A DNA stretch of 56,836 bases from a virus, in the IMG/VR virus record IMGVR_UViG_3300037147_000155, positions 1 through 56,836 of that record. One strand, given 5' to 3'. The notes under the pieces are model-generated. The model saw only the letters and a program-made list of their open reading frames with translations, made no database searches and had not been told where the DNA came from. This document shows positions 18,735 to 36,208 of the stretch, piece by piece; the first letter of the stretch is position 1, and each line of letters opens with the position of its first letter. A program made the translations under genes and the position numbers.

Positions 18735-19132
18735 TGCCCTTCCTTGCTGGCATCGCTGGCTTGATACCGGCCCTGATTGGCGCTGGCGTAACCGGCGTGA
18801 CCACCGGACTCGAAGCCTCAGGGGCCATCGGAGGCGGTGGGGGCAGCAGTACCGCCCCTCCCAACCCAGCCCAGCTGGCCAGCCAGGTCGCCCAGCAAAA
18901 GGCCCAACTCGCCTCGACGCTGAACCAAAATAAGGGTAACGTACAGGAGCAGACCGGCGGAGGCTTGGCCCCTGACGCGGTCGCCCAGCTAGTGGGTGGC
19001 GAGACCGGCAACCTGAACAACATCAACTCTCTGCAAGACCTCGTCAGCTCTCAGAGCGGCCAGGCCATCCAGCAGCCCTCCCAGCCCGGAGCAGGCGGCC
19101 TGGCTGACAGCGGCATCTATGGAGCCAGCTAA
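18734..19132 (+). CDS. putative internal virion protein, small
   Basis: A 132-residue protein. The N-terminal hydrophobic Gly/Ala segment, PFLAGIAGLIPALIGAGVTG (residues 2-21), is followed by a Gly-rich linker and a Gln/Ala helix (AQLASQVAQQKAQLASTLNQ). Hydrophobic-plus-Gln-rich composition before larger helical proteins matches ejection protein cassettes of podoviruses, where the products enter the cell wall with the DNA. The function is inferred from order and composition. Confidence 0.6.
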   Translation: MPFLAGIAGLIPALIGAGVTGVTTGLEASGAIGGGGGSSTAPPNPAQLASQVAQQKAQLASTLNQNKGNVQEQTGGGLAPDAVAQLVGGETGNLNNINSLQDLVSSQSGQAIQQPSQPGAGGLADSGIYGAS

Positions 19133-19776
19133 TGGATAGCATCGTCACCGCACTCCAAGGCGCATTCACCGGCCCAGGCGCGCTCGGCAACATCCTCAAG
19201 ACCGGCGTCACCGCCGCGGGCGGCATCGGCGACATCATCTCCCAGCAGAAGCAGAATTCTTCGCTCAATCAGGTGCTGCAGTACCAAAAGAATCCAGCCC
19301 TCGCAGCGCAGAAAATCGCCCAGATGACTCAACCCTTGAGCCAGGGCCTGACGCAGGACGTTGGCAACAATGTTCAAGGCTACCTCGGCGAACGCGGCCT
19401 GTCGGGCAGCCCTAACATTACCGCATCAGTGCTGGCTCAGGCCCTAGCTCCCTATCAGCAGCAGAATCAGCAACTAGCCACCAGCCAGTTCGGACAGTTG
19501 CTCAATCCAGCCGGTGCTGGCTTCGGCAAACCAATCGACTGGGGCAGCTTGATGAAGCTGTGGATGCCTGCGCCGAAGCTGAACCCCGCCGGAACAAATC
19601 CAGCCTCCACTGGACCATTCCCCAACATGAATACCGCCGGAACCAGCGGCACCTTGAACTCAACGCCGCCATTCTTCCCGACGACCGGCCCCAGCTTGAG
19701 TCAAGCAGCTCAACCACCCGACATGTCTGGCATGGACGACTTCAGCGGCCTCGATAGCTACCCAGGTGGTCAATGA
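19132..19776 (+). CDS. putative internal virion (ejection) protein
   Basis: A 214-residue product, Gln-, Ala- and Gly-rich. The N-terminal amphipathic region, ALQGAFTGPGALGNILKTGV, and a helical core (LAAQKIAQMTQPLSQGLTQD) precede a Pro/Asn/Thr-rich C-terminus. It has 1-base and 4-base overlaps with its neighbours. Similar composition and order are typical of podovirus internal proteins such as the P22 gp7/gp20/gp16 set, though no direct similarity is claimed. Confidence 0.6.
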   Translation: MDSIVTALQGAFTGPGALGNILKTGVTAAGGIGDIISQQKQNSSLNQVLQYQKNPALAAQKIAQMTQPLSQGLTQDVGNNVQGYLGERGLSGSPNITASVLAQALAPYQQQNQQLATSQFGQLLNPAGAGFGKPIDWGSLMKLWMPAPKLNPAGTNPASTGPFPNMNTAGTSGTLNSTPPFFPTTGPSLSQAAQPPDMSGMDDFSGLDSYPGGQ

Positions 19777-21050
19777 GCGCCCTCGCACAATCGATCGCAA
19801 CCTCCCTCGGCTCAGCCGGAGGCGGCTACGGCGCTGCCCGCGACGCGCAGACCGACGAGAAGAATCAGGTTACCCAGGCTACCTCAGCTGCCGACCAGGC
19901 CAACTTCGAACGCTCCATGCGGATTAAGCAATTCATCCTGGAGCAGCAGACTCAAAAGCGCCTGGCTGACTCAGCTGAACTCCAGAACCGCGTTCAGTCA
20001 GCTCTCATGGCTGGCTCATGGACTGACACTGGCGCTCCAGTCCGCATGAAAGGTGGCGGTCTGGGGATGATTCAGCACAATAGTAAGACCAACGAGACTC
20101 GTGTTGCTGCCCTTCCTGAGGGCACTGAGCCTCAGAACGATGACGAATCCAAGTGGGACCAATACCGTTCCGCCTACAAGCAAGCCTTCGGCAAGGAGCC
20201 CGACGACGACCTCCGCAAAACCTTCTTCAACAAGATGGCTGGAGCCCCCGCGCCCAAGGACCAAACTGAATTCGAAGCCTGGCGCGAGGCCTTCAAGGCC
20301 GCCCACGGCAAGGAACCAGGCGCTGCCGAGATCGCCGACTGGCACCGCGCACCCAAGGCTGAGAAGGGCGCAAAGGACGACGGCACGAGTGACCTTGGCT
20401 CCTTCGCTCAGCAGCTCGCAACCAAGAATCTCACCCTGGCCCAGGTGCCCAGTAAACTTCGCGGCCCTCTGCTCTCCTACATGCACGATCAAGGGATGAA
20501 GTTGCCAAATCAACTCAGTCCCGCGCTTGAAGACAAACTTATGCAGCGCTCTGACGCGCTCCAAAACACTGTCGACCTGATCGACCAGATTCGTCCCGAC
20601 CTCGACTTGATCAAGACTCTCCCATCGGCCTCCTTGGTCGAACTGGCTCAGTCCCCCGAATCAGTCAAAGCTGCCCTGACTCGCTACTTCACCTGGATGC
20701 AGAAGCCCCAGGACAGAATGCGAATCGAGCGCCTGGCAGGTAACCTGCGCTCCCTCCAGGAGGCGGTCAACGTAATCCGTGGCCCCCTGGGCGCAACCGG
20801 CTTCCGCGGCAAAGAGGGCTGGGATGCCCTGCAGAATCAAACCGTCCGCGCCCTGTCCGCGCCCGGCGTCAACGCTCAGGTACTCGACAACACCGAGAAG
20901 ATCGCGAAGTCACTGCTGAACTCAACGCATCAAGTTCTCGGCGACTCAGGCGAGGAGGCCACTCCATCAGCTGCCTCCGCCAAGCCGTCATCCAGCAGCG
21001 ATCTCCACTTCGACTCAAAGGGGAACATAATTGCCGCTCCCGCAAAATAG
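19773..21050 (+). CDS. putative internal virion (ejection) protein, helical
   Basis: A 425-residue, mostly helical protein. It has an N-terminal Ser/Ala/Gly segment, then helices such as NFERSMRIKQFILEQQTQKR, a charged repeat-like pair (YRSAYKQAFGKEPDDDLRKT and WREAFKAAHGKEPGAAEIAD), and a C-terminal helical domain (DLIDQIRPDLDLIKTLPSAS). The internal duplication '(Y/W)R.A(Y/F)K.A.GKEP...' is clear. The last 20 bases overlap the next gene. Confidence 0.6.
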   Translation: MSALAQSIATSLGSAGGGYGAARDAQTDEKNQVTQATSAADQANFERSMRIKQFILEQQTQKRLADSAELQNRVQSALMAGSWTDTGAPVRMKGGGLGMIQHNSKTNETRVAALPEGTEPQNDDESKWDQYRSAYKQAFGKEPDDDLRKTFFNKMAGAPAPKDQTEFEAWREAFKAAHGKEPGAAEIADWHRAPKAEKGAKDDGTSDLGSFAQQLATKNLTLAQVPSKLRGPLLSYMHDQGMKLPNQLSPALEDKLMQRSDALQNTVDLIDQIRPDLDLIKTLPSASLVELAQSPESVKAALTRYFTWMQKPQDRMRIERLAGNLRSLQEAVNVIRGPLGATGFRGKEGWDALQNQTVRALSAPGVNAQVLDNTEKIAKSLLNSTHQVLGDSGEEATPSAASAKPSSSSDLHFDSKGNIIAAPAK

Positions 21051-22455
21051 CCCCGAGCGCACCGCCCACCTGGCTGACGGCCGGACTCTCCATTTCCCTG
21101 CCGACACCCCTGACGCCGTCATCAGCGCTACGGTAAAGAAGATGCTAAACGCTGAACCATCTGCGCCCGCCGTCCCAGCTCAGGGAGCCCCCCTCGCCCA
21201 GCCCTCTGGCCCCACTTCCATGCGCGCCTACACCATGGGCGACCGCCTGAAGCAGGCCATCAACTCAGGCAAGGAAGGCCTACCAGCCATCGGTGCCGGC
21301 CTCGCAGCGGCAGCCGCCCCCACCTCAGGCGGCCTAAGCGAACTTATTGTCCCAGTCCTCGCTGCCCTGATGGGGGGCGCTGCTGGGACCTCCGCCAAAC
21401 AAGGAGTCTCAGCAGCCATCGGCAGTGGCGATCGCCCCAAGTCCACCACCGATGCCTTGACTGAGGTCGGCGTGGGCGGCATCCATCAAGCCGAATACGA
21501 AATGAGCGCAAAGCCTCTCGATGCCTTCCTTGGCCACGTCATCGGCACCACCGCCTCGAAGGCCAACCGCGCCCGAGTAGCCAACCTAACCGCCATGACC
21601 GGCAAGGGCGATCAGACTGGCGCAAATTTCGAAAAGATCCTCTCTGACATCGACGATACAGTGAAGGTCTCAGGTCGCCCTAAGTCCCCCTTGGGCGTGT
21701 TCAACGTCATCAAGCAGACCGGCAAGCGCCTCGATAGCGAATTCAACAACTCACTTGCCCTGGTGGGCAACCAGCGCGTGGTCCCCATGGACATTGCCAA
21801 TCGCATCCATAGCCTGATCACCCCCGACATGGCCTACACCGCCGAAGGCCGGGCTGCCCGCAAGGAGATCCTCGACGCCGAGGTCGAATATCAGAAGCCT
21901 TGGACTTACTACGCCCTCAACAGTAAGCGCATGACCAACAATAATCTCCTTGATCCTCTCTACAACAAGGGCTCTCAAGGTCAAGCCGCCGCCCTGTCAG
22001 ACGTGCAGAAGAAAATCGCCAAAGCCGTCCGCGATGAGTCGGCCAACATGGTCTACAGCGCCGTGGACAAGGTCAATCCTGCTATCGATGCTCAACTGCT
22101 GAAGCAAAGACAGGGAGCCCTCTGGTCGCTATCTGATCAACTCAGTGATCGCGTAAGCGAGATCCACGACGCCCAGCTGACCGAGGAAGGCAAAACTTTA
22201 CGCCAGAAGGTCAGCCCCAGCGCCGTCGTCACTCCAAAGTCCGCCCATGGCTACGTTCGCGGGGTGAGCAAACTAATCCCCGGCGGCGGACCCGAGCGTC
22301 AAGCAGCCATTCAAACTCGCCGAGCCTTCAAGGATTCCAGCTCAGCGATCGCCCGCCGTCGTGCAATCCTCGCAGCCCCAGTAGCCAACATCATGCGCGG
22401 CGTGGGCGCGGTTGGATCCGCAGCCACTTCAGAGGACGACAACGATGACCAATAA
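21031..22455 (+). CDS. putative internal virion (ejection) protein
   Basis: TTG start at 21031 with GGGGAACATAA upstream gives MPLPQNSPERTAHLADGRTL. The phrase 'DGRTLHFPADTPDAVISATV' is the common N-terminal module of phage internal and tail proteins. Residues 85-115 are hydrophobic Gly/Ala-rich (possible membrane insertion), and the rest is helical with many charged residues. It ends NDDQ just before the signal-peptide genes. By order it closes the ejection protein set. Confidence 0.6.
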   Translation: MPLPQNSPERTAHLADGRTLHFPADTPDAVISATVKKMLNAEPSAPAVPAQGAPLAQPSGPTSMRAYTMGDRLKQAINSGKEGLPAIGAGLAAAAAPTSGGLSELIVPVLAALMGGAAGTSAKQGVSAAIGSGDRPKSTTDALTEVGVGGIHQAEYEMSAKPLDAFLGHVIGTTASKANRARVANLTAMTGKGDQTGANFEKILSDIDDTVKVSGRPKSPLGVFNVIKQTGKRLDSEFNNSLALVGNQRVVPMDIANRIHSLITPDMAYTAEGRAARKEILDAEVEYQKPWTYYALNSKRMTNNNLLDPLYNKGSQGQAAALSDVQKKIAKAVRDESANMVYSAVDKVNPAIDAQLLKQRQGALWSLSDQLSDRVSEIHDAQLTEEGKTLRQKVSPSAVVTPKSAHGYVRGVSKLIPGGGPERQAAIQTRRAFKDSSSAIARRRAILAAPVANIMRGVGAVGSAATSEDDNDDQ

Positions 22456-22468
22456 AGGGAGCCAGCTC

Positions 22469-25400
22469 ATGAAGTGGACAATCAGCATCATCTTGACACT
22501 CATAGCGCTGCTGACCATGGCTCAGTCGGCCACGGCCCAGGCTGGCTACACGACCGTCACCGGCACCGTGGTCGATGCCAACTCAGTTCCCTACGTGGCT
22601 GGCAACTACAACGTGACCTTCGTCAACACGACCGGACAACAGGCGATGTTTCAGGGCAGCGTTCTCAACCAGACAACCTTCAGCGGCAAGTTGACCTCTA
22701 CCGCCACCTTCTCGATCGTGCTGCCAGCGAACTCCGGTGCGGGCGCTATTAGCCCGCTGGGCACGCAATGGAACTTCAGCTTTACCGCCAGCGACGGCGG
22801 CTCCCCCTTCAACATCAACGCGACCATCACTGGCTCCACTCAGTCGCTCAGCACTGCAATCGCCGCTGCCGCGCCCATTCTCACCTTCACTATCGGCGGA
22901 CCAAGCGGCGAGCCAATCCCCGTCGGCCCCTCCGCTGACTGCCCCGCATCGAATGGCACCTTGAGTTACTGGATTCCCTGTGCGGGTGGCGGTCCTCCAA
23001 CTGGGGCCGCCGGGGGCGTATTGGCTGGTACATATCCCAACCCCACCTGTTCAACATGCGCCATTACCGCGAATCCACTTTCCCAATTCGCACCCACAAC
23101 CTCAGCCCAGCTTCGAGGTGTACTCAGCGATGAGACCGGAACAGGCGCAGCCGTCTTCGGAACCTCGCCAACTCTAATCACTCCTGCTCTTGGCACTCCT
23201 ACTGCATTAGTTCTAACAAGCGCGACGGGATTGCCCCTGTCTACCGGAGTGGTCGGTCAATTGCCAATCGGCAGCGTAGGCAGCGCGGGTTTGAGTGGGA
23301 CATCTCCCATCGCGATTGCTTCTACCGGTGTGATTAGTTGCACCACTTGCGGAGTGATCACGGTACCGGTGGGAGCTGATCCTTCGGGCGCAACTGATTC
23401 TCGCGTTGCTTTACAGGCGGCACTGACCATAGGGGCAACCACACCTTATCCGGCAGTATTTATCCCGGCAGGAAGCTACATAGTCTCTTCGCCAGGCCTA
23501 AGCTGCCCGTCAAGTTCCTGCAAGATATTTGGCTCAGGCGGTAACACTACCTCAATCCAGGCCAGCGCCAGCGGCTACAACACACTGGTAATTGGAGGAC
23601 CATACGTCTCGCAAAACCCGTCAGGATGGACAAAGGACATCGCAGTTAGCGGCTCCGGAAGGCCAGGTTCGATAACTGGGGTTTCAGCACTCCAACTCAA
23701 TGATGTGCAGAACTACCGCATCGAAAATGTCAGCCTCTATAACGACGACATCGGGCTTGACCTCATAAATAATTGCTACGGGCTTCTTGCCGAGAATATT
23801 CGCGGAGGTGGTGGAAGTCTAAATGTCGGCATCAACCTCCGCACGGGATCACAATCGGGATCGGACCTTGTTTTTAACAGCGTATGGGTGGAAGGGATAT
23901 TCGCAGGTGTGTCTATATCCCCCGGTGGAGGAGGATATCACTTCTATGGTGGGCAGCTTGGCACAGATCTAAACTTCGGTTCCGCGAACGACCTTGCCGG
24001 GACCGTCGTCATGGGCAAGGACTACATCACAGGGTCTACGGCTGGCGGCGGGACAAGCGCCAATTTCGATGGAACGAGCTTTGAGGGCACCAACTACGCC
24101 TGGGTGTTCCGTGCGTACGGATCTGCTTATCTCTTTACCAATGAAATCGCCATGAACCCATCGAACGCCAGCTATCCCGCCATTGGCGTCTACAAGAACA
24201 CCACCTTCGGCACGGGCCAGCTTGAGATGCGCGGCAGCTCAATCAGTGGCGCATGGGCTAACACGAATACCGGCGGGGCCTTGATAGTCGTATCCGGAGT
24301 GACGCAAAGCCTCAATCCCTATCCAATCATCGAAGAGGGGACAATCGTAACTGGGAGCACGCCATATATAAATGGGGTTGCCACGAATATATCTTCGATC
24401 ACCGACCAATCGGGCGTGCAGCAATACGCTACTTCTCACAGTGGCCAAGGCATCGAACATAATGGCCTTCTTTTTAGGAATAACGGCGGGGTTCTACAGA
24501 CATCCTTGAACCAGGGAGGTACTTGGGGCAACGTTCCGCAGCTAACAACTATCGGTGACGTGGGCTACGGAGGCTCTTCGGGAACTCCCACACGCCTTCC
24601 AGGAAACACCACGAACACCGATCAAGTTCTAGTCTCACACGGCACGGGCGGCGCGGCAGCAGCACCTACCACGAAAACATGCGTCTCTGGAACAGGAGGA
24701 GCGGGAACTTCCACCACGTGCACCTGGAGTACTCCGCCACAAGCAGGAGAGTTCGTTGCCATCGCGGTCAACAACTTCACCTCGGCTACCTACACGGTGA
24801 CGGACTCCGCAGCCAACTCTTATAGCGCGTATGGCAGTGTTCACAGTTCAGCCTCAACCGGCTACACGCAAACATTTTACTTCGGCCCCCTCGCCGCGCC
24901 CATCACCACCACGACGGTGACGGCGACTGCGGGCAGCTATTTGAACATAGCTGGGCAGACAGCCGCAAACATTGCAACCTCTTCGCCGACAGATGGGCAA
25001 GGCACGATAGACGCGACTGGAACGGCGAATGTTCCCCCGAACGGTTATTCTCCGATCACACTGGGATCCCCGATCACGACCACTGTAAATGGCGACTATA
25101 TTTTCTGCCCCACCTATGGACAATATCTCAGCGCACTTTCTCCAGGAGTTGGTTTCACTCAAGGTTCGCAATTAGGGAATATGTACTATCCCCTAGAAAC
25201 TAATTCTTTATCGCAGTATCTAGTGCAAGCGACAGCAGGGGCTATCACTCCAAGCATGATAGGCACGCAGGGGCTCATATCCACAATGACTTGCAGCGCG
25301 TTCAAGTCTGCCGGGGGATCAGTGGGAGGGGGAACTGCGGCAGCTCCTTATCTAACGAGCACTCCAAGTTTCGCCAAGGTTCTTACTGCCTCAAATTGTT

Positions 25401-25696
25401 CTAACTCAGCTTCTCCAGCGGTATGTGGCTCGGCAGCATCGGGTAGCGTAGCTCTCCCGACAGGAACTAATCCGACTCTCGTTGTAAACTCGACTGCTGT
25501 CACAGCCAACAGCCAGATCATGCTCACTGTGGATGAGAGCCTAGGGACCAAGCTGAGCGTCACCTGCAATACAACGCTATCCACCTTGCTCAACCCAGTA
25601 GTCACAGCGCGCACGGCGGCTACTAGCTTCACTTTCACGATTGGCGCGATCATCGCCACCAACCCAGCATGTGTCAGCTACACGATCATAAACTGA
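22469..25696 (+). CDS. large secreted beta-helix protein with N-terminal signal peptide
   Basis: The start at 22469 follows AAAGGGAGCCAGCTC and gives a signal peptide, MKWTISIILTLIALLTMAQS, ending near ATAQ|AG. Residues 25-150 form a beta-sandwich (YTTVTGTVVDANSVPYVAGN to FSFTASDGG) shared with the next gene. A collagen/phage-fibre-like linker follows, then a pectate-lyase-type beta-helix starting GADPSGATDSRVALQAALTI and FIPAGSYIVSS. The C-terminal third is Thr/Ser/Gly-rich. In total 1075 residues: a tailspike or depolymerase by fold, but export by Sec is unusual for a virion protein. Confidence 0.75.
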   Translation: MKWTISIILTLIALLTMAQSATAQAGYTTVTGTVVDANSVPYVAGNYNVTFVNTTGQQAMFQGSVLNQTTFSGKLTSTATFSIVLPANSGAGAISPLGTQWNFSFTASDGGSPFNINATITGSTQSLSTAIAAAAPILTFTIGGPSGEPIPVGPSADCPASNGTLSYWIPCAGGGPPTGAAGGVLAGTYPNPTCSTCAITANPLSQFAPTTSAQLRGVLSDETGTGAAVFGTSPTLITPALGTPTALVLTSATGLPLSTGVVGQLPIGSVGSAGLSGTSPIAIASTGVISCTTCGVITVPVGADPSGATDSRVALQAALTIGATTPYPAVFIPAGSYIVSSPGLSCPSSSCKIFGSGGNTTSIQASASGYNTLVIGGPYVSQNPSGWTKDIAVSGSGRPGSITGVSALQLNDVQNYRIENVSLYNDDIGLDLINNCYGLLAENIRGGGGSLNVGINLRTGSQSGSDLVFNSVWVEGIFAGVSISPGGGGYHFYGGQLGTDLNFGSANDLAGTVVMGKDYITGSTAGGGTSANFDGTSFEGTNYAWVFRAYGSAYLFTNEIAMNPSNASYPAIGVYKNTTFGTGQLEMRGSSISGAWANTNTGGALIVVSGVTQSLNPYPIIEEGTIVTGSTPYINGVATNISSITDQSGVQQYATSHSGQGIEHNGLLFRNNGGVLQTSLNQGGTWGNVPQLTTIGDVGYGGSSGTPTRLPGNTTNTDQVLVSHGTGGAAAAPTTKTCVSGTGGAGTSTTCTWSTPPQAGEFVAIAVNNFTSATYTVTDSAANSYSAYGSVHSSASTGYTQTFYFGPLAAPITTTTVTATAGSYLNIAGQTAANIATSSPTDGQGTIDATGTANVPPNGYSPITLGSPITTTVNGDYIFCPTYGQYLSALSPGVGFTQGSQLGNMYYPLETNSLSQYLVQATAGAITPSMIGTQGLISTMTCSAFKSAGGSVGGGTAAAPYLTSTPSFAKVLTASNCSNSASPAVCGSAASGSVALPTGTNPTLVVNSTAVTANSQIMLTVDESLGTKLSVTCNTTLSTLLNPVVTARTAATSFTFTIGAIIATNPACVSYTIIN

Positions 25697-25707
25697 TGAG
25701 GGTCAGG

Positions 25708-27777
25708 ATGATTAGACGATTACTATGGCTGATGTTGTTGGGGCTGCTGAGCAGCCTGCCCACGTTGGCCCAACAGGGATTCACTGTTGTCAGTGGCACG
25801 GTCGTGGACAGCAATGGATCAGTCTACTCCAACGCTACCTTCAATGTGGGATTCGTGAATCCAGGCACCCCAGCAGGTGTGCTGCCCCTGCTCAACGGCT
25901 CCACGTTTCAGCAACAATATGTGGGAGTAGTCACCGACTCCTTCGGGCGCTTCTCGCTGGCCATCCCCGACAACAATGTGATCGCCCTCTCGGGGGCGCT
26001 GAACACGCAATGGAACTTTAGTTTCTGCAGCGTGCTATACCCGGCACCCAACCAAAAATACTGCTTCAACACGAACTTGACGATCACCGGCCCGACGATG
26101 AATATCAGTACTCAATTGACTGCTGCAGCGGCGATCTTGCCCCCTATAGGAGGCGGTGCGACATTGGCCTTCTTATATACGCAGGCCACCCCTGCAACTA
26201 GCTGGGAAATCGTCCACAACTTGAATACGCCCTCGGTGACGTTTGATTGTTTCGATGCGAACCAGCAATACGTGGTACCAGACACGGTCACTAACACCAA
26301 TGTAAACACTTTGATGGTAACCTTCACTGTGGCGCAAGCAGGAACCTGCATAGTGTTAGGCGCTGGAGCCGCCAGCTCAACGAGTGGAGGAGGTGGCGCT
26401 ACCCTGACAGCCACGCAAAACGGTTTCGGTTCATCCGGGAACGCATTGACTGGCGACCCTACCTACACATTCAATTCCACCACAAAAAATGAACAAGTAC
26501 CTTCAATCAACCAAACTATCTACATCGACGGCGTGAAATATCCGCAATCCGACATTGGGGCCGGGATTAATGCTGCTTACGCTGCGCTCCCGGCGAATGG
26601 CGGAACAATCATCATTCCCGCAAGCGCTACCTGCTACCAAACATCGACGGCCATGAACTTTGCGACCGAAGGCAAGTTCCCCCTTATCGTTTCTTCCCCT
26701 GGCGGATCAGCCTGCATCCAGTGGACCTCGACAACTGGCACGGCGATAACTTTCAACTCAGGAGAAGGCGTTCTCGCTACTCACCCGCGAGCATTCGGAT
26801 TGCGCGATATTGAACTTGTAGGACCGAACGGAAGCACGGGACCCACGAACATTTGCACGTCCCTTTCAGGCGTGACAGCGACAGCACTTCTACTCGGTGG
26901 CACGAATGGAGCAGAAGGATTTGGCGCTTACGGAATCAACATCAATTGCTTTGGGACGGGCGTGACCTACGGGAACAATACCTGGGGCACACTGTTCAAA
27001 CACGGCACGATCCGCAACAACACAAAAGACCTGAACATTACGGGCTCCCTCTCGAACACAGGCGAGCAACTAGCCTTCGATGAAATCTCCTGGATTTACG
27101 ACCTGGCATCAGCCCCGGCCTGCGTAGTGAACATGAATCCTACCGGGATCACACTCGAAACCGAGTTCGTAAATAACTCGTTCGATGGCGCGGAATTCTG
27201 CCCTCTCGGCATCTCTCACCTGATCAATCCGCACTTTGAGAATCCAGGGAACAATATGACGTTCCCGTTCATCGTGAACTCGGCCAACCTGGAGATTTTA
27301 GGCGGAACATTCCTTGAGGACTACACTTCGACATTTGTACCCAACGAGTACATCGCCAACACGGGAAATAACGCCGTCCTGCTCCTGCATGGGTTCAACG
27401 CCTACGCTGGATCGGTGCTCAGCTACTTCGTGGGCGATGCCAATAACGCTGTAACCAATATCGATGGGCTGATGACCGGCACGTTTTCTTGGTCCGCGTG
27501 GATCAACCATACCGGAACGGGAACCTGTCTGATTGACGGTTACGGTACCGCATCTGGGGTCGGAGACTTCTACTCTTGCCAGCCGATAATCTTCCGAGGA
27601 GGCATCCAGCTCAATAATCCCGTGACTACTCTCCCATCAGCAAGTGCAGCTAATACAGGGCAGGTGATGACAGTTAGTAATTCAACCACCGTGGTAACTG
27701 AAGGACAGGTATGTGCGCTCAGCGGTTCTAGTTTTGCTATCGCTATATCTACTGGTTCCGTATGGAAATGCTTCTAA
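25708..27777 (+). CDS. secreted beta-helix protein, paralogue of upstream gene
   Basis: MIRRLLWLMLLGLLSSLPTL then AQQ is a signal peptide; GAGGGTC lies before this ATG, and ATG 25696 is an in-frame alternative. Residues 23-140 (GFTVVSGTVVDSNGSVYSNA, TQWNFSFCSV) repeat the N-terminal domain of the gene at 22469. A beta-helix follows from YIDGVKYPQSDIGAGINAAY and GGTIIIPASATCYQ. In total 689 residues, probably a polysaccharide-binding or -cleaving protein. The C-terminal end (TEGQVCALSGSSFAIAIS) is a small terminal cap. Confidence 0.75.
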   Translation: MIRRLLWLMLLGLLSSLPTLAQQGFTVVSGTVVDSNGSVYSNATFNVGFVNPGTPAGVLPLLNGSTFQQQYVGVVTDSFGRFSLAIPDNNVIALSGALNTQWNFSFCSVLYPAPNQKYCFNTNLTITGPTMNISTQLTAAAAILPPIGGGATLAFLYTQATPATSWEIVHNLNTPSVTFDCFDANQQYVVPDTVTNTNVNTLMVTFTVAQAGTCIVLGAGAASSTSGGGGATLTATQNGFGSSGNALTGDPTYTFNSTTKNEQVPSINQTIYIDGVKYPQSDIGAGINAAYAALPANGGTIIIPASATCYQTSTAMNFATEGKFPLIVSSPGGSACIQWTSTTGTAITFNSGEGVLATHPRAFGLRDIELVGPNGSTGPTNICTSLSGVTATALLLGGTNGAEGFGAYGININCFGTGVTYGNNTWGTLFKHGTIRNNTKDLNITGSLSNTGEQLAFDEISWIYDLASAPACVVNMNPTGITLETEFVNNSFDGAEFCPLGISHLINPHFENPGNNMTFPFIVNSANLEILGGTFLEDYTSTFVPNEYIANTGNNAVLLLHGFNAYAGSVLSYFVGDANNAVTNIDGLMTGTFSWSAWINHTGTGTCLIDGYGTASGVGDFYSCQPIIFRGGIQLNNPVTTLPSASAANTGQVMTVSNSTTVVTEGQVCALSGSSFAIAISTGSVWKCF

Positions 27778-27801
27778 TTCCATACGTTGATTGAGGCGGC
27801 T

Positions 27802-28740
27802 ATGATTAAACGATCCTTGATACTGTTGACGCTAATCATTGGCCTGACTCTGACCGCTCAGGCGCAGACCGCTGGTACGCAAGTTGGCCGGGTGTCTTTA
27901 ACCCAAGGAGCGTCGGTAAGTCAGCAAGGATACATAGCTGGAGGCTCAATCATTCTTGGTCAGCTTGTCACCATCAATTCATCGGGGCAGGTAATCGCCG
28001 CGACGACTTCCACAACCGATGGGGTCATCGGCGTCGCCAAGAATAGTGGGACAACCTCACAGCCAGTAGATGTAGCCCTAATCGGGCAGGTAGCTGCCTT
28101 ATCAGATGGTACCTGCTCACAAGGTCAACTACTGCAAATTTCCATTATCTCTGCTGGGCGTGTTAACTGTACACCGTCTATCATCAATCAGCAAATCGGT
28201 ATAAGCGATTCCAGCGTAGCTGGACCGGGAAATATCACCGCGGTATTGACAGGTGGCGGGTCGTCTGGCAGCAGTGGTGGCGCGAACACGACGCTATCGA
28301 ACCTCGGCACGACGGCTCTTAACGCCGATCTGATGTGCGCCACCGCAGGGAGCTGCAACCTTGGATCCGCCGCGGATCCAGTCAACGGAGTCTACTTGAA
28401 ATTCTTCCAGCTGAATACTCCAGGGGCGCTGATACTCGGCTACCCTGGTCCCTGCGCTGCCCCCGGCCCCAGCCAAATCGGCTCATGTTTTGGCGACTCC
28501 AATGGGGCGATCGATGATTGGGATGGCTATTCGGCTACCTTTAGGCCTCACGCGCTGGCGCTCGTGCCGGGCACCTTCGCGGCCTTGAGCGCTGAGTATC
28601 CCTGTCCTGGCTCGGAAGGGCAAGGGGGTTCAGTAACCGACTCGACCACGAACACATGGGGGGCGACAGTAGTCGGCGGCGGGGCGGATCATGTTCTGGC
28701 GTACTGTGACGGCAGCGCTTGGACTGTCGCGGCTAAATAA
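27802..28740 (+). CDS. secreted small fibre-like protein
   Basis: The start follows GAGGCGGCT and gives the signal peptide MIKRSLILLTLIIGLTLTAQ, cleaved near AQA. The 312-residue product begins with a head-fibre-like beta domain (GGSIILGQLVTINSSGQVIA; DGVIGVAKNSGTTSQPVDVA), the pattern of phage DUF2190-type decoration proteins, then a Ser/Gly linker and a C-terminal domain ending WTVAAK. The last codons are echoed after the inserted HNH gene at 29270. Confidence 0.65.
   Translation: MIKRSLILLTLIIGLTLTAQAQTAGTQVGRVSLTQGASVSQQGYIAGGSIILGQLVTINSSGQVIAATTSTTDGVIGVAKNSGTTSQPVDVALIGQVAALSDGTCSQGQLLQISIISAGRVNCTPSIINQQIGISDSSVAGPGNITAVLTGGGSSGSSGGANTTLSNLGTTALNADLMCATAGSCNLGSAADPVNGVYLKFFQLNTPGALILGYPGPCAAPGPSQIGSCFGDSNGAIDDWDGYSATFRPHALALVPGTFAALSAEYPCPGSEGQGGSVTDSTTNTWGATVVGGGADHVLAYCDGSAWTVAAK
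28720..28740 (+). repeat. gene-end sequence duplicated around inserted HNH, left copy
   Basis: Codons for WTVAAK-stop end the gene at 28740. The same peptide-coding stretch, with synonymous changes, recurs at 29270-29290 on the other side of the HNH gene. This suggests recombination between related gene ends when the endonuclease cassette entered. Confidence 0.6.
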
Positions 28741-29245
28741 TATGACGCCAACTAATACGAAGCCTGATCTGAGAAATACTTTGCTTGTTGACGCCAAATC
28801 GTTGCGCCAAAACTTTCCCTGGCTCAATACTCTGCCTTATTTCGCGTACGGCTTCTTCCGTGAGTCTAGAGTTTCCACAAGTTTCCCCCCGCGGCATCTT
28901 CCCATTGCGATAAGCGTGCATCCAGTTTTCACGGCTAGTCATGTACTCCAAGTTTGCAGGCCAGCGATTATCTGTCTTCTTGCCATTCTTGTGATTGGCA
29001 GTATGTCCATCTGGGCACACCCCTACGAAACTTCCCATCACAAGAGAGTGAACTTTACGGTACGCGGTTTTTCCAGCGGCACTCAGGTGAACTACTTTGT
29101 ACCCATAGAAATCAATAGTGGGATTCAGAATCTTCCCAACATGGGTATGCGGACCTGGTGCTATCCTTCGTACGCGGCCTCTGTCAGAAACTTGGTAGTA
29201 ATCATCAAAGCCAAAAACTGGAAGCCATTTTTCGGAGTTACCCAT
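28733..29245 (-). CDS. NUMOD4-HNH homing endonuclease, antisense in tail region
   Basis: A 170-residue protein. The N-terminal NUMOD4 motif, EKWLPVFGFDDYYQVSDRGR, is followed by the HNH core (VHSLVMGSFVGVCPDGHTAN then HKNGKKTDNRWPANLEYMT). A C-terminal helix-turn-helix follows (LTEEAVREIRQSIEPGKVLA; RFGVNKQSISQIRLR). It lies opposite to the surrounding late genes, so it needs its own promoter. Its stop overlaps the end of the upstream gene by 8 bases. Coding composition is AT-richer than its neighbours, as expected for a mobile gene. Confidence 0.9.
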   Translation of the reverse strand: MGNSEKWLPVFGFDDYYQVSDRGRVRRIAPGPHTHVGKILNPTIDFYGYKVVHLSAAGKTAYRKVHSLVMGSFVGVCPDGHTANHKNGKKTDNRWPANLEYMTSRENWMHAYRNGKMPRGETCGNSRLTEEAVREIRQSIEPGKVLAQRFGVNKQSISQIRLRISWRHII

Positions 29246-29269
29246 AAGGATCTATTGTATCACACAAAA

Positions 29270-29290
29270 TGGACGGTGGCTGCGAAATGA
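29270..29290 (+). repeat. gene-end sequence duplicated around inserted HNH, right copy
   Basis: TGGACGGTGGCTGCGAAATG corresponds to WTVAAK-stop and overlaps the ATG of the next gene (29287). Without the HNH insertion, either copy would join the upstream gene directly to the next by a stop-start overlap. Confidence 0.6.
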
Positions 29291-32200
29291 TGAAGCGACT
29301 TTTGACATTGCTGACCTTACTGTTCGGCCTGACCTGGACGGCCAACGCTCAATTTACCTGTCCACCCTCGTGTGCCCGGCTGACCTCCAACGCGACCAAC
29401 AGCATCGTTCCGCAGGGTGGATTTGGGTCGGCGTTCCGCGCTTATGTGTACGGTAAGACCTTTCAGGCTCCCAATGCGGTCAATGCCGTCACCTGGAGCA
29501 TCTCAGTAGGCACCCTCCCTGCTGGCCTGACCCTGGGTGCGTCCACCAGCAATACGGCCACGATCGTAGGCACCCCAACCGGCACCGGATCGTCGGCATT
29601 CACCTTAAAGGGAGTCGATAGCATTGGGCAGATATTCCTGCTGCCCACCACGATTACTGTCTATGTGTCCACTGGAGTGTCGGTGACGCCAACGGGCCAG
29701 AGCATCAAGACCGGGGCGACCCTGCAACTTACCGCCCTCAGCCTAGAGTCAGACTCCATCACCACTCTCCAAATATCGTCGATCGCTACATGGGCATGTA
29801 GTGGGACCGGCTACTCATCGATCTCCATGAGCGGCCTGTTCACCGCCAGCGGCTCGACTGGTTCGCCATCCTGCACGGCGGCGTTCGATAGCCAGACCAG
29901 CGCGGGGGTCACCATCACCATTGGCTCATCTGTCCCGACGATCACCAACTCAGCCACATTGCCAGCGCCATGCGATATAAATTTTCCATGCCCAGGATTG
30001 CAGCTGAATGCCACGGGAGGCGTAACTCTTCCTTACGTGTGGACTATTACCAGCGGAGCACCTGCGGGATGCACAACCTCGGTATCTTCGACAGGCTTCT
30101 ATGCCTGCACGCCAACGACGGCGACGACATATTCTAGTTTCATCATTCAAGTTTGCGACAGCGCGGGCTCACCGAATTGCACCTCAAAGACTTTCACTCA
30201 GGTGGTCGGGTCGCTCTCTTCCATCGCGGTTACAGGGATGGCTTCCATCTCAGTTAATGGGAGCACTCAGCTAACCGCGACCGGGACATATAGCGGCGCT
30301 GGCACGCACGATATTACCATTGGCACTGGTGGTGGCACGGTCGCATGGACCTACATCCGAGGTAATAACGTCATTAATTCCTCGACGACCACCGCAGTCG
30401 TACCGCTCAACAATGTCGTCGCTGGTGACACGATTATTTGCGCCCCCATCTACGTTAACGGCGCGGGGTCCGGTCAAACGCTTACGAGCGTGAAGGACCA
30501 AGCAGCGGCAGCCTTCACTGCTACCACGCATTCGCCAACAACTTTTCTCGCAAGCGTTGGGCAAGCGTGGATGTACTACCAACTCAGCGCGGCAGGCGGC
30601 AACGAGACATTCACTGGAACGTGGTCAACTGTTGGAGCAGCCTTCGGAATGGGATGCGACGAATTTAGGGCCTCGGGAGGAACGCCAGCATATGACGTGG
30701 ACGCCGCGCAATCCTCCGGAGCGTCGGGTACCGCCAACACTGGCCTAACCATCACGCCAGCCGGAGCAGGCAAACTCATCTATGCCGTGGACGTGCCTGT
30801 GAACGCGATCACCGCTGCGGGCGCTCCGTTTACCCTTGGCTCAGGTGGATTCTTCGATGCGGCGGCAACAGAATACTTACTCAGTTCAGTAGCGGGCGCG
30901 AACTCGATCAACTTCGCACAGGCTCCAGCAGGGGCTTATGCGGCAATCGAAGCGGCATTCAGCGTCACGCCAACCAGCGGAGGAGTGGGCACCGTATGGA
31001 CGGCTACTACACTAACCGGCAATGCGCCGTGCTCAGTGAATGGGAGTGGGCTCGTACAAGGGCTAAGTGCTGGGACTTGCAGCGCGAAGGCCGCGGTGGG
31101 TGCGGTAAACGGCACGCTCACTGTCACCGTGACAGCGCCGACCGACACGACCATAACGGTCGCTCCACCCACAGGGTCTCAACTAATTGGAGGACAGTTT
31201 ACATTCTCTGCAACCGGCAATCCCAGCGGCACGATAGACACTGGCGCACCGACCGTCTGGTCATCGAGCAGTCCATCTACCCTATCGATGGTAGGTAATA
31301 TAGGAACGTGTAAGGCTGCTGGGTCGGCAGTGATTACTGCTACCGTGAACTCCAACCTAAGCGGCTCTACCAATGCTCTTACAAATAACCCCATCATTTG
31401 CGTCACGGCGGTCGCGGGGGGCGGGAACCTTTCCAACTGTGTCGTTACCGGCAGTACTCCCACCTCTACCGCGAGTGTGACGGGATGCGCTAATTCCTGG
31501 CCTCCTGCTGGATGGACTCTGGTTATTGCAGATGGAGCGAATGGAGCGCAGCCATCAAATGTAGCCCTCGCGGGCATAACGAAAAAGCTTCCATTCGGTC
31601 ACTCTGGGGCTAATTCCTATGGACTTAATTTAACTGGTAACGGATCGGAAGCTGGCTGGTATGTCAGCGGATCATCCCTCACAACTTTCAGCCAGGTGGA
31701 TATTTCCTATTGGGAATATGACGACAGCAACGCGATGTATGCGAACTCGGATTACTACCTAGTTTCACTTCGCAGCAACTTGGCGTGCTCTGGGCAAGGC
31801 CAAGCTGTCGGCATAAACGCCCAACTCTACAATGTTCCCGTAAATACTGCTTCAGTTCTCAAGGGAGCGTTCTTCTCATCTCCCGTACTGGGAAACCCAG
31901 CCAACAATGCGTGTCAAGGGGCGATCTGGCAGCAGGGTTTCAATATGGGCATCAATGCGGGAGTGTGGCGACAGTACGAATTTCTGATTATCCCTAACAC
32001 GACCGAAACGGGAGGGCAAGTTTTCCCTCCGCCGAATTGCAACAACCTAAGTCCTTCGACCATCGGATGCGGAAATGGAACGATGACGGTGTGGGTAAAT
32101 GGCGTGCAGGTCGTCACTTACCTCAACGCTAATTTGCAAGGGACTCAGACTCTCGGGAGCAATTCTGATACGGCAGTGGAAGTTGGCGGCGTCATGTCAT

Positions 32201-32343
32201 CATTTTCCAACATGAATTTTACTACACCTTGCAACTCATGGAGCGCCACCGGAGGTGGTTCGTGTCCCGGAACTCAGCCAGGCACAGGCGCTCCGCAACC
32301 ATTCCATCGTTATCTTGCCGACATCGTGGTTATCAAGCAATGA
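29287..32343 (+). CDS. large secreted Ig-like repeat protein with lectin-like C-terminus
   Basis: Signal peptide MMKRLLTLLTLLFGLTWTAN then AQ. In total 1018 residues. Successive Ig-type modules follow: a cadherin/putative Ig form (WSISVGTLPAGLTLGASTSN; GTPTGTGSSAFTLKGVDS), Big2-like pieces (ISVNGSTQLTATGTYS), and a second 'GLP'-type module. The C-terminal 250 residues look like a concanavalin-type jelly roll (FSQVDISYWEYDDSNAMYAN; MTVWVNGVQVVTYLN). This suggests adhesion to a cell surface or polysaccharide. Start: the ATG overlaps the duplicated stop, with a second ATG three bases later. Confidence 0.7.
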   Translation: MMKRLLTLLTLLFGLTWTANAQFTCPPSCARLTSNATNSIVPQGGFGSAFRAYVYGKTFQAPNAVNAVTWSISVGTLPAGLTLGASTSNTATIVGTPTGTGSSAFTLKGVDSIGQIFLLPTTITVYVSTGVSVTPTGQSIKTGATLQLTALSLESDSITTLQISSIATWACSGTGYSSISMSGLFTASGSTGSPSCTAAFDSQTSAGVTITIGSSVPTITNSATLPAPCDINFPCPGLQLNATGGVTLPYVWTITSGAPAGCTTSVSSTGFYACTPTTATTYSSFIIQVCDSAGSPNCTSKTFTQVVGSLSSIAVTGMASISVNGSTQLTATGTYSGAGTHDITIGTGGGTVAWTYIRGNNVINSSTTTAVVPLNNVVAGDTIICAPIYVNGAGSGQTLTSVKDQAAAAFTATTHSPTTFLASVGQAWMYYQLSAAGGNETFTGTWSTVGAAFGMGCDEFRASGGTPAYDVDAAQSSGASGTANTGLTITPAGAGKLIYAVDVPVNAITAAGAPFTLGSGGFFDAAATEYLLSSVAGANSINFAQAPAGAYAAIEAAFSVTPTSGGVGTVWTATTLTGNAPCSVNGSGLVQGLSAGTCSAKAAVGAVNGTLTVTVTAPTDTTITVAPPTGSQLIGGQFTFSATGNPSGTIDTGAPTVWSSSSPSTLSMVGNIGTCKAAGSAVITATVNSNLSGSTNALTNNPIICVTAVAGGGNLSNCVVTGSTPTSTASVTGCANSWPPAGWTLVIADGANGAQPSNVALAGITKKLPFGHSGANSYGLNLTGNGSEAGWYVSGSSLTTFSQVDISYWEYDDSNAMYANSDYYLVSLRSNLACSGQGQAVGINAQLYNVPVNTASVLKGAFFSSPVLGNPANNACQGAIWQQGFNMGINAGVWRQYEFLIIPNTTETGGQVFPPPNCNNLSPSTIGCGNGTMTVWVNGVQVVTYLNANLQGTQTLGSNSDTAVEVGGVMSSFSNMNFTTPCNSWSATGGGSCPGTQPGTGAPQPFHRYLADIVVIKQ

Positions 32344-33620
32344 GAACTCTACTCCTAATCCTTCTCTGCGTCGCTCCGTTGCGAGCGCAGACTGGCACCC
32401 CGGCAAGTTTCTTCTCAATGACCATGAACACTCAGGGGCACGAAACGATACTCCCTATCGGTGGCCTGCGTCTTTGGGATACGTCCGCTACGTGGCCCTC
32501 GATAGAAACGGCTAACGGGACTTACAGTTACACCACGCTCGATGCGTGGTTGGCCGAGGCGCAGATGCTGAACGCGGATGTTACGTTCACTGTGGGCGGT
32601 CAAACGCCACCTTGGGCCATAACTGGTAGCTGCACGGGGACATACTCAGGCTCCTCTCCCAAAGGCTGCGCTCAAGTACCGTCCGATATCGGTTCAGGTG
32701 ACAACATCTGGAAAGCGTTCATTACTGCGTTGGTAAAACATTCTCTCGCATCCTCGACAGCGCACATCAAGTTTTATGAATGTTGGAACGAACCGGACCT
32801 GACAGGGACTTTCGCTGGCACCGTCCCGCAGCTCGTTACTCTCTGCCACGACCTCTACACGACCGTCCATGCACTCGACCCTAACGCCTTGGTGATTGGT
32901 CCGTCTCCATCCACCGGATGTACGAACAACTGCGGCATTCACACTCTGCCTACATACTATGCCTACGGTGGTGCTCCCTACGAAGACATCGTGGGAATGC
33001 ACGCATACATGTACCAATTCCAGACCACGCCAGAGCCAATTTCCAACATCGTCACTCAGCTCCAGACGCTGATGACCGCCAATGGCATTGGCGCGTTACC
33101 GATATTTTTCACCGAGGGCAACGAAGGCAACTCGACCCAAGCTCCGATCAGCACTATGACCGATGCTCAGAAGGTCGCCTATCTGATGCGCGAATACTTA
33201 TTGATGTGGATGGTCCCGCAAGTTCAGCGGTACTACTGGTACGCTTGGGACAACGCGAACTACGGGACTTTGTACAGCAATGGCGCACTGACGCAAGCGG
33301 GCATTGCCTACAAAACGCTGCAAAGCTGGCTGGTCGGCTCGACGCATCCCGCGAACCAGTGTAGCAAGGATAGCAATGGGACATGGTCCTGCACGCTGAT
33401 CTACCAGGGCAATCCAGCGCTGATCCTGTGGAACCAGACGACCACGCCAAGCACGCCAGTCCCAGAGACGTTCGCTCATGTGCTCTCGTATACCGGTACT
33501 AGGAGTGCCATCGTCGCGAACGCGGTCACTGCTGGCCCGATTCCGCAGATGGCTGTCCCTGATAGCTGGATATGGAATTGCACCGGTGCCCAAACTTTTA
33601 TTTGCACGGGTAAGACATGA
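32340..33620 (+). CDS. secreted clan-A glycoside hydrolase (GH39/GH5-like)
   Basis: Signal peptide MRTLLLILLCVAPLRAQ. The 426-residue product is a TIM-barrel hydrolase: FYECWNEPD (Glu151 as acid/base in the classical W-N-E-P motif) and LPIFFTEGNEGN (Glu259 as nucleophile at the end of strand 7). Other barrel features are GGLRLWDTSATW, DIVGMHAYMY and YYWYAWDN. Such enzymes cleave beta-linked polysaccharides. The ATG overlaps the preceding stop by 4 bases. With export and surrounding beta-helix genes, degradation of host exopolysaccharide is the likely role. Confidence 0.8.
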   Translation: MRTLLLILLCVAPLRAQTGTPASFFSMTMNTQGHETILPIGGLRLWDTSATWPSIETANGTYSYTTLDAWLAEAQMLNADVTFTVGGQTPPWAITGSCTGTYSGSSPKGCAQVPSDIGSGDNIWKAFITALVKHSLASSTAHIKFYECWNEPDLTGTFAGTVPQLVTLCHDLYTTVHALDPNALVIGPSPSTGCTNNCGIHTLPTYYAYGGAPYEDIVGMHAYMYQFQTTPEPISNIVTQLQTLMTANGIGALPIFFTEGNEGNSTQAPISTMTDAQKVAYLMREYLLMWMVPQVQRYYWYAWDNANYGTLYSNGALTQAGIAYKTLQSWLVGSTHPANQCSKDSNGTWSCTLIYQGNPALILWNQTTTPSTPVPETFAHVLSYTGTRSAIVANAVTAGPIPQMAVPDSWIWNCTGAQTFICTGKT

Positions 33621-35284
33621 TGAGATTATTGTCCCTACTTCTCCTGTTCGCGCTTCCCGCGAGCGCTGCGAATTCCGTCTACATCGCGCAGACCGCCGCT
33701 GGAGGCAACACGGGGGCAGATTGCCTGGACGCGAAGCCGGTCATCTACTTCAACACTTCGGGAAACTGGAGCGCGACGCCTACAGGCATTCAGATCGGCC
33801 CTGGCACGGCTGTCCATCTCTGCGGCACGTTCACCGGGACCGCTGGCAGTACGATGCTGACCGTTCAAGGATCGGGAGCGAGCAATAATCCGGTTACGAT
33901 TATCTTCGAGGCGAACGCCCAGTTGAGCGCTCCCTACTGGGGCTCAAGTAATTTTACAGGCTCCGGCGCGGCAATTGTTTGCAGCAACTTCAATTACATC
34001 ACGGTAAACGGCGGGGTTAACGGCTTGATAGCCAACACGGCCAACGGCACTGTCTTAGCCAACCAGGCGGGCACTACGGCAGTAAACTTCTCCGGATGTA
34101 ACCACGTCACGATCACCCACCTCAACGTCTCGAATATGTACGTCAAAACATCAGCCAGCGATGAAGGTCAGAGTGGTGGTGGTGCGACCGGAATTGCTGT
34201 TGGCAGTGCGGACTTCCTGACGATCACGAACAACGTAGTCAAGCAGGTGCGCGACGGTATCGATGTGGGCTATATCACGCTAACGTCCGCCACGATCACA
34301 GGCAACACGGTCGATTATGGCTGCCATCTCGTAACGGTGGGCGACATTCTTGGGAACAGCACCGCTTCAGGAGTAGTCCTTAGCAACAACACGATTGGGC
34401 CGCATCAGTCGATCTGGGGCGACCCGTCGCAGAACTGCCACGGCGACGGGTTCATACTTTCAGCATTCAATTCTGGATCAGTATGGTCGAATTCTACAAT
34501 CTCCAATAACAACTTCTCGTCTGACATGTGTGCCCTTGGTGGGAATTGCACCGCACCGCTATTCCTCACGGGAGACTTCTCGAACATCGCGATATACAAC
34601 AACGTGCTCAGTTATGTGAACGCTGGAAGCGGTAACGGCGGCGGTGAATCGCTGATCCGCATGGGCGTGGGAAGCTACACGGGCGCGCAGATGACCAATA
34701 TGGGCATCTACAACAACACGTTCACTGGACTAGCCGCCCCTGGGATCAAGATAGACGCCGATCCAACTCCAGGATTCATCGTCAAGAACAATATTTTCGT
34801 TAACATGTCTCCCGCGTTGCTGGAAAATCCGACGAACAACCTAGACTGGGCGGCCAGCGATTATAACGATTTTTATAATTCGACCGTTGCCGCGAACGGC
34901 TCATTCTCGGGTATGGTGACGAACTACAATACGCTGGCAAGTTGGCAAGTTGCCACAATCTCCGCATCAGCACATCCCGATCCAGACAGCATTACCGGCA
35001 ATCCTCTGCTGAACTCAGCCTTCATCCCCCAGCCAGGGTCGGCGGCCATTGCGGCAGCCTTGAACTTGACCAGCTTATCGATCGCAGCACTCGACAGCGA
35101 CAAGAGCGGCCGCGCACGGCCAGCCAGCACAGCTTGGGACATCGGAGCATTCAGCACCACCGGCATCGTCACGCCTCCGCCTAACAATTGGGTCTGGAAG
35201 GGGACCATCGTCACGCCCATGACCATTAGCTGCGTTTGCAATGGAGTTATTCAGTTTTGCAATTGCGTGCTCGTGCAGCCATGA
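33617..35284 (+). CDS. secreted right-handed beta-helix protein
   Basis: Signal peptide MMRLLSLLLLFALPASA then ANSVYIAQTAAGGNTGADCL. The 555-residue product has many beta-helix rungs with N-x-hydrophobic spacing (ITNNVVKQVRDGIDVGYITL; ATITGNTVDYGCHLVTVGDI; NMGIYNNTFTGLAAPGIKID), as in pectate lyase and mannuronan epimerase folds. A C-terminal cap (DSDKSGRARPASTAWDIGAF) is typical of such bacterial secreted proteins. It overlaps the glycoside hydrolase by 4 bases; probably a polysaccharide lyase or epimerase. Confidence 0.75.
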   Translation: MMRLLSLLLLFALPASAANSVYIAQTAAGGNTGADCLDAKPVIYFNTSGNWSATPTGIQIGPGTAVHLCGTFTGTAGSTMLTVQGSGASNNPVTIIFEANAQLSAPYWGSSNFTGSGAAIVCSNFNYITVNGGVNGLIANTANGTVLANQAGTTAVNFSGCNHVTITHLNVSNMYVKTSASDEGQSGGGATGIAVGSADFLTITNNVVKQVRDGIDVGYITLTSATITGNTVDYGCHLVTVGDILGNSTASGVVLSNNTIGPHQSIWGDPSQNCHGDGFILSAFNSGSVWSNSTISNNNFSSDMCALGGNCTAPLFLTGDFSNIAIYNNVLSYVNAGSGNGGGESLIRMGVGSYTGAQMTNMGIYNNTFTGLAAPGIKIDADPTPGFIVKNNIFVNMSPALLENPTNNLDWAASDYNDFYNSTVAANGSFSGMVTNYNTLASWQVATISASAHPDPDSITGNPLLNSAFIPQPGSAAIAAALNLTSLSIAALDSDKSGRARPASTAWDIGAFSTTGIVTPPPNNWVWKGTIVTPMTISCVCNGVIQFCNCVLVQP

Positions 35285-35641: not shown

Positions 35642-35980
35642 ATGGCACATTTCGTCGCTGCAGTCGAGCCTACGCTGGTAGCATTTCTGACCTTGGTGAT
35701 CCCAGCCCTTGGACTATGGATCGTTAATCAGCTGAACGCCAATCATGCGGCTACTGTCGCTGCAGCGAAGGAGTCAACCACAGCGGTTGCTGCGGTCAGC
35801 CAGAAGGTGGATAGCATCGATACCAAGGCGAGTAGCATCGTCCATGCGACCGATGGCATCAACACCGGCCTCAGGGAGACCATTGCAGCGCAGCAAACGA
35901 CCGCCGAGCACCTGGCTGTCGTCAATAACTATCGGGCTCAGATCGCAGAATTGACTAAGAAGGTCAACGGAGGGACATAA
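35642..35980 (+). CDS. membrane-anchored coiled-coil protein, holin- or spanin-like
   Basis: A 112-residue protein. One transmembrane segment lies at the N-terminus (EPTLVAFLTLVIPALGLWIV, residues 9-28), followed by an Ala/Thr-rich helix and coiled coil (VAAVSQKVDSIDTKASSIVH to the end, AQIAELTKKVNGG). The N-in anchor plus long periplasmic or cytoplasmic coil and its place before the lysozyme-like gene suit a holin or i-spanin role. GAGGAGAGAACGCA precedes the ATG. Confidence 0.6.
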   Translation: MAHFVAAVEPTLVAFLTLVIPALGLWIVNQLNANHAATVAAAKESTTAVAAVSQKVDSIDTKASSIVHATDGINTGLRETIAAQQTTAEHLAVVNNYRAQIAELTKKVNGGT

Positions 35981-35981
35981 T

Positions 35982-36137
35982 ATGGGATCGATGATATTGC
36001 TGGTGGCGGCGTTTCTGTGCTGCCTCGGGGCCGCGTTTTGGTATCCGGCAGGGAATCCATCACCGTATCGGCCACATTTGGGCTGGCTCGGGATGGCAGC
36101 ATATTTTTTGAGCCTGCTGGTTGCGGGGCACCGATAG
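35982..36137 (+). CDS. two-helix membrane protein, holin candidate (51 aa)
   Basis: It begins MGSMILLVAAFLCCLGAAFW (first helix), then NPSPYRPHLGW and a second helix GMAAYFLSLLVAGHR. The pattern of a helix, a short Pro/Asn/Arg loop, then a helix matches small conserved phage membrane proteins seen in lysis or early genes. The site GGAGGGACATAAT and a two-base gap from the upstream gene support expression. Two helices and small size suit a class II holin. Confidence 0.65.
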   Translation: MGSMILLVAAFLCCLGAAFWYPAGNPSPYRPHLGWLGMAAYFLSLLVAGHR

Positions 36138-36167
36138 TACTTGGCTCCAGCCAGTCGGTGTGCTAAA

Positions 36168-36186: not shown

Positions 36187-36208
36187 TCAGGAGGGTAGGC
36201 TTCCCATT

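Follow-up and report, generated by a model that had tools for sequence, protein, structure and literature searches.

The tail fibres and tailspikes of T7- and P22-like podoviruses are large repetitive adhesins and enzymes, encoded in a slot that follows the internal virion proteins and precedes the right-hand genes (in the T7 record, gp13-16 are followed by gp17 and the holin). In the textbook view, tailed phages assemble in the cytoplasm, and we know of no precedent for tailed-phage assembly outside it. Seven isolate genomes are reported to have 0 to 2 signal peptides each (2, 1, 0, 0, 0 in PMC5723332; 1, 0 in PMC4128745).

Some phage proteins of other kinds do use host export. According to PMC4823517, pIII and pVIII of filamentous phages are made with a type I signal although they belong to the virion, and the adsorption protein is exported before assembly. 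However, filamentous phages assemble at the membrane, whereas the phage studied here is tailed, judging by its terminase, portal and major head protein families. Three further papers describe use of the host Sec pathway by the signal-bearing endolysins of fOg44 (Lys44) and the J5a clade and by SAR endolysins (PMC6116005, PMC8878798, PMC3765740), but these are lysis proteins rather than fibre-slot proteins. A search of open-access literature found signal-bearing endolysins and filamentous virion proteins, but no report of signal-bearing tailed-phage fibres.

Six genes with predicted signal peptides in the tail-fibre slot

The window, by which we mean the whole stretch analysed, is a single virus record of 56,836 bases. 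TerL (phrog_2), a portal (phrog_156) and a major head protein (phrog_9953) make up a tailed-phage gene set, and they are followed by tail genes, three cysteine-free proteins and the signal-bearing genes A to F:

19132..22455 (+): three cysteine-free proteins (214, 425 and 474 aa) at the place of the internal proteins, immediately upstream of A-F; same order in relatives
22445-35284 (+): six signal-bearing genes A-F, in a slot typical of tail fibres
22445..25696 (+): A, 1083 aa, from ATG 22445 (ATG 22469, the start in the initial annotation, is also in frame)
22445-22537 (+): A signal peptide, score 6.11, predicted cut SATA^QAG
22544..22882 (+): A shared N-terminal domain (HMM hit), without cysteines
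25669..27777 (+): B, 702 aa, although in-frame ATGs further downstream may serve as the start
25669-25770 (+): B signal peptide, score 5.62, predicted cut PTLA^QQG
25780..26142 (+): B shared N-terminal domain (HMM hit; model pLDDT 89.6), one cysteine pair
27802..28740 (+): C, 312 aa, weak match to phrog_1731 (virion structural family; E-value 0.025)
27802-27864 (+): C signal peptide, score 6.3, predicted cut AQA^QTA
28733..29245 (-): NUMOD4/HNH homing endonuclease (Pfam) between C and D, interrupting the block
29287..32343 (+): D, 1018 aa, Ig-like (Big_2 over the gathering cut-off)
29287-29349 (+): D signal peptide, score 5.59, predicted cut ANA^QFT
32340..33620 (+): E, 426 aa, predicted clan GH-A type glycosidase (PDB 8uwt, E-value 9.7e-6; Pfam GH39/GH5 under the cut-off)
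32340-32387 (+): E signal peptide, score 5.88, predicted cut LRA^QTG
33617..35284 (+): F, 555 aa, without Pfam or PHROG match
33617-33667 (+): F signal peptide, score 5.8, predicted cut ASA^ANS

The initial annotation described six consecutive large proteins with Sec signals. Type I signal features were indeed found at all six N-termini. The genes are consecutive on the plus strand, although not overall, as the minus-strand NUMOD4/HNH gene separates the third from the fourth, and 'large' does not suit C, which has merely 312-317 aa. A second homing endonuclease (phrog_314 type; 15059-15787, +) likewise lies inside the structural region.

The genes after the block (35642-38908) had been called lysis genes, a label that found no backing in Pfam, where none of the six products has a match. 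The product of 37071-37676 (+) has an N-terminus with a twin-arginine-like TRRQF and a lipobox-like IEGC, and RRxF-type N-termini also occur in relatives (G029 47728, G049 52775, G023 7718, G051 12533 and G038 33026); these are possibly phage Tat lipoproteins. At 44619-45125 (-), a lipobox-like LTLCG at the N-terminus possibly marks a lipoprotein.

Signal scores and controls

Signals were called with a custom scorer based on a charged n-region, an uncharged core of 8-12 residues and the -3/-1 rule, with a pass threshold of 5. A-F score 5.59-6.30, against 4.59 for the next best gene in the window; among the 55 greedy window genes of at least 110 aa, six pass, all within the A-F run. Shuffling the first 60 residues of A-F gave 4 to 55 passes per 2000 trials for each protein. 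In a stretch of E. coli K-12, with classes assigned from gene names and recall, 0/18 cytosolic, 3/4 exported and 2/11 inner-membrane proteins passed (the fourth exported protein scored 4.85), and hence the scorer can mistake a first membrane helix for a signal. The 19-residue hydropathy mean is 1.3-1.9 at the N-termini of A-F and reaches 1.0-1.8 in other stretches, so hydropathy alone leaves further membrane segments possible.

Five control phages (Mx8, BUCT555, ctMlz233, ppBjS10J-1 and T7) bear out the earlier statement that phage tail proteins normally lack export signals; among the 85 genes in them that encode 300 aa or more, the only one to pass belongs to Mx8 and lies outside the tail region. 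Tail-region signals are thus zero in all five, whereas here nearly all slot proteins carry one, together with paired cysteines.

Conservation among relatives

MCP relatives of the phage were found at 29 loci (47-90% identity), and a terminase relative once (71%); the nearest isolates have ~24% MCP identity. The MCP alignment drew on 154 relatives, of which 80 were kept. Bacterial genome contigs scanned with the terminase and with an MCP alignment contained no relative, and hence the host was not traced. Viral contigs were also scanned with B and with one internal protein, and no relative was found.

Across 25 long contigs, including the window, 93/1357 genes pass the scorer, compared with 23/1447 shadow ORFs. 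A comparison of slot gene order in these contigs places the signal genes after the cysteine-free proteins. Large genes directly following the cysteine-free proteins have a signal in 52/74 cases, against 9/210 for other large same-strand genes; this count covers 23 contigs, leaving out G043 and G011, both of which have signal genes but an MCP ORF outside the greedy set. A scorer artefact was rejected in view of shadow ORFs, of which only 2/215 pass. At least three large signal genes occur in 15/25 contigs, while the runs are significant on their own (permutation p < 0.05) in only 8/25. In the window, all six large slot genes are signal-bearing and a signal-less large fibre candidate is absent. 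The pattern is conserved, in that this phage and most of its relatives put predicted export signals on their slot proteins. Internal proteins ahead of the block follow a marked compositional rule of their own; nearly all of them, across the 25 contigs, lack cysteine completely.

Signal-less main fibres are found in three exceptions, G027, G028 and G030. In G027 and G028 (MCP 69% identical), the main fibre keeps its cysteines without a signal, and in G030 it has neither. At threshold 5, slot signals number zero in G028, G030, G038 and G016; the G038 slot has one signal at 4.8, and G016 has signal genes outside the slot. A recheck of start positions turned up a signal further downstream for the majority of the cysteine-rich genes that had been called signal-less, in some cases scoring below the threshold of 5; missed starts behind the signal-less calls were considered and set aside after this recheck. 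The upstream frames of G027 and G028 were also read for a frameshift hiding their signals, and none was found.

A shared N-terminal domain with paired cysteines

A and B have an N-terminal domain in common, which was found in 41 distinct proteins in a first set and in 87 after a wider scan. Of these 87, 77 are signal-bearing, one of them called by eye (L226 4386; one G038 row in the earlier set was also called by eye), and ten are signal-less. The number of cysteines in the domain is even in 76/77 and nonzero in 74/77 signal-bearing proteins, and even in 10/10 and nonzero in 2/10 signal-less ones. Below 80% identity, the first pair of cysteine columns has both cysteines in 25 proteins, a single one in 0 and neither in 53, and the second pair has both in 52, one in 1 and neither in 25. 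One of the search patterns of the wider scan includes a cysteine, so cysteine presence in that set is biased; the earlier set, less biased on cysteine though seeded with B, gave 16, 0 and 25 for one pair and 21, 1 and 19 for the other. Outside the domain, the median cysteine content is 1.73% in signal-bearing proteins and 0.11% in signal-less ones. The signal-less proteins of G027 and G028 have 1.6-3.1% there, which we read as a probable recent signal loss in a single lineage. The all-or-none pairs appear to be the trace of disulfides, and stable disulfides suggest a location away from the cytoplasm. The sequences thus point strongly to disulfides in exported proteins, and export via Sec is well supported.

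Predicted cut sites in 76 signal-bearing domain proteins have Ala at -1 in 69 and Gln at +1 in 56, although some of these preferences are built into the scorer. In the signal-less homologues, a Met is followed by the mature sequence, the entire signal segment being cleanly gone. As these forms begin at the mature N-terminus, the mature form is presumably the functional unit. Two signal-less domain copies (L032:2079-2717 and L033:8515-9153 (-)) lie in a frame that seems to begin without a usual start codon, where ATA fits.

By structure modelling, the shared domain is a predicted transthyretin-like sandwich. Its viral structure matches are led by phage fibres and esterase-type tail proteins, with the ctIlO27 tail fibre among the top ones (TMq 0.61, E-value 6.6e-4). 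Fold matches in the PDB belong to a common sandwich group that includes intradiol dioxygenases; phage neck and tail fibres and the lambda tail tip match at Z 7.1-7.8, where the arrangement alone may be shared, a sandwich fold at Z 7-8 being common. A PDB sequence search with the domain gave nothing significant, and its hhalign match to lambda Stf is weak (probability 6.8%, E-value 0.0053, just 21 columns). A further fold match (Z 7.5) is PDB entry 9yh9, which came out of a soil survey and is titled as a phage catechol 1,2-dioxygenase. Fibre domains of dioxygenase fold could pass for metabolic genes, or vice versa.

Adhesin- and enzyme-like proteins in the block

The C-terminus of A (106 aa) matches the signal-less relative G028 38179-41778 (E-value 4.1e-33), so that the two proteins have both the N-terminal domain and the C-terminus in common; a tblastn search against phages with the C-terminal 121 aa of A gave zero matches. 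Residues ~161-231 of B form a fibre-type segment that matches phrog_21918 and phrog_16122 (virion structural protein). Searched against phages by tblastn, whole B gave zero matches and the segment 25 weak ones (E-values of 0.01-0.1), which were not relied on. At the level of sequence or domains, A and C-F match known fibres weakly or not at all. A PF03906 search of the record gave zero matches, as it did for the control sequences.

The Ig-repeat protein and the clan-A glycosidase proposed from the sequence alone can be recognised in D, where Pfam finds an Ig-like domain, and in the GH39/GH5-like E. Like the beta-xylosidase-like GH39/GH5 glycosidases that it matches in sequence, E conserves the NEP and TE segments, but it is phage-borne. 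Both segments, with their catalytic-type glutamates, align with GH39 entries, and we take these glutamates to be the acid/base and the nucleophile of clan GH-A. The single-sequence model of E (pLDDT 33.8) is too poor to judge a (beta/alpha)8 barrel. Pectate-lyase-like beta-helices, suggested for A, B and F, go back to a motif seen by eye, and no supporting Pfam (threshold 0.1) or PHROG match was obtained for them.

In a set of 58 signal-bearing proteins, GH18, CBM_5_12, a polysaccharide lyase and a GDSL lipase were found in one member each, and several tail-fibre PHROGs were matched by one or two members each. When 29 of the 58 were compared with PHROGs one by one at 1e-5, the sole family matched was phrog_18474 'hydrolase', by three proteins; most tail-fibre PHROG matches therefore lie in members not individually assigned. 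Position, the fold of the shared domain and the absence of another candidate suggest that A-F are adhesins and depolymerases of tail-fibre type that end up in the virion.

A second lineage with signal-bearing proteins

The shared domain, used as a query, was found at 46 loci. Twenty-seven records were tested, of which 12 have the MCP and 15, some of them fragments, do not. The four MCP-less records that were read further have one (G065) to four large signal genes, the other three at least three each. Here too the signal genes lie downstream of cysteine-free proteins, with an ATP-grasp-type gene of ~430 aa in between:

L240:1214-2488: ~430-aa gene ahead of the signal genes
L242:17065-18372: ~430-aa gene ahead of the signal genes
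L246:63-1349: ~430-aa gene ahead of the signal genes
L248:13559-14842: ~430-aa gene ahead of the signal genes

The one of these genes that was scanned matches GARS ATP-grasp. Capsid family phrog_371 occurs in three of the four records and terminase family phrog_38 in one, and the tail family phrog_3287 is common to the window and one record. Another phage lineage, with a different capsid and terminase, is thus predicted to have the signal-bearing pattern too.

Possible roles of the exported proteins

The initial annotation had offered two readings, proteins secreted during infection or proteins matured outside the cell before assembly. Export itself is upheld by the slot enrichment and the cysteines; between the two readings, we merely lean to the second. 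The A-F block would be a set of tail fibres or spikes and envelope depolymerases synthesised as Sec pre-proteins. During infection these would leave the cytoplasm by export, have their signals removed by signal peptidase and acquire their oxidised fold outside it (in the periplasm, if the host is diderm). At lysis, particles built in the cytoplasm would encounter the mature fibres and take them on, with most of the attachment provided by the shared N-terminal sandwich domain, which cutting turns into the exact N-terminus. We give this series of events, from Sec export through extracytoplasmic disulfide formation to virion docking at lysis, a probability of about 0.5, as our favoured explanation. 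Its last step, docking at lysis, is suggested by the fibre slot, the fibre-like first domain, the signal-less forms of the same architecture and the absence of any other fibre candidate in the window. Counting against this explanation are the signal-less main fibres of G027, G028 and G030, the first two with cysteines retained, the commonness of the sandwich fold, the weak lambda Stf match and the want of a known precedent for such assembly; enzymes such as E, or the GH18 and polysaccharide lyase proteins of relatives, would also make sense in free form. The signal-bearing set may also be mixed, with some proteins docked and others free.

Perhaps the proteins never enter the virion, but are free enzymes and adhesins that open the host's envelope polysaccharide or the matrix around it, letting the progeny out to spread. 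The signals and the disulfide pattern fit this directly, as do the glycosidase-like E and the single GH18, CBM_5_12, polysaccharide lyase and GDSL members among the 58 proteins; the proposal that such proteins degrade exopolysaccharide and free the progeny stands only insofar as some members resemble glycosidases or lyases. However, free secretion would leave the window without a candidate adhesin, one would hardly expect free enzymes to hold a fixed position after the internal proteins or to carry fibre-type domains, and signal-less homologues exist, so we rate it below docking, though as a serious rival. The exported adhesins could instead coat the infected cell and mask its receptors, thereby excluding further phages and keeping progeny from binding again to debris. 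According to PMC4823517, the N-terminal domain of filamentous phage pIII makes a cell that contains it resistant to infection, indicating that exported adsorption proteins can mask receptors. Six different large proteins, with enzymes among them, nonetheless look excessive for this purpose, and masking as their role seems improbable.

Two further explanations dispense with export or with fibres, and we give very little credence to either. The hydrophobic N-termini might serve as anchors that are never cut or as elements of virion assembly; cutting is beyond what the scorer can prove, and some inner-membrane proteins do pass it, but the strong cut-site patterning, the paired cysteines and the clean loss of the segment in signal-less homologues all argue against this. 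Alternatively, the genes might be bacterial cargo, secreted host proteins acquired as accessory genes and unrelated to fibres. Glycosidase, Ig-like, CBM and similar modules are present, and such modules are frequent in bacteria. Cargo of this kind would hardly keep its slot in contigs with MCP identity down to 47%, and a fibre-like N-terminal domain in common, plus matches to fibre PHROGs, also speaks against it.

Returning to fibres that mature outside the cell and dock at lysis, we propose, somewhat more tentatively, that in at least two lineages of uncultivated tailed dsDNA phages the whole receptor-binding and depolymerase set may mature outside the cytoplasm in disulfide-bonded form, with the virion completed at or after lysis. 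If the exported fibre set is real, these phages would have a virion-completion step outside the cytoplasm and disulfide-stabilised adhesins. Receptor-binding proteins would already sit on the infected cell or close to it ahead of lysis, which would affect superinfection and binding to debris. Genes for 'secreted enzymes' in phage contigs may then be fibres, and a simple sequence rule, a signal and paired cysteines after cysteine-free internal proteins, could point to receptor-binding genes in phages known without a host.
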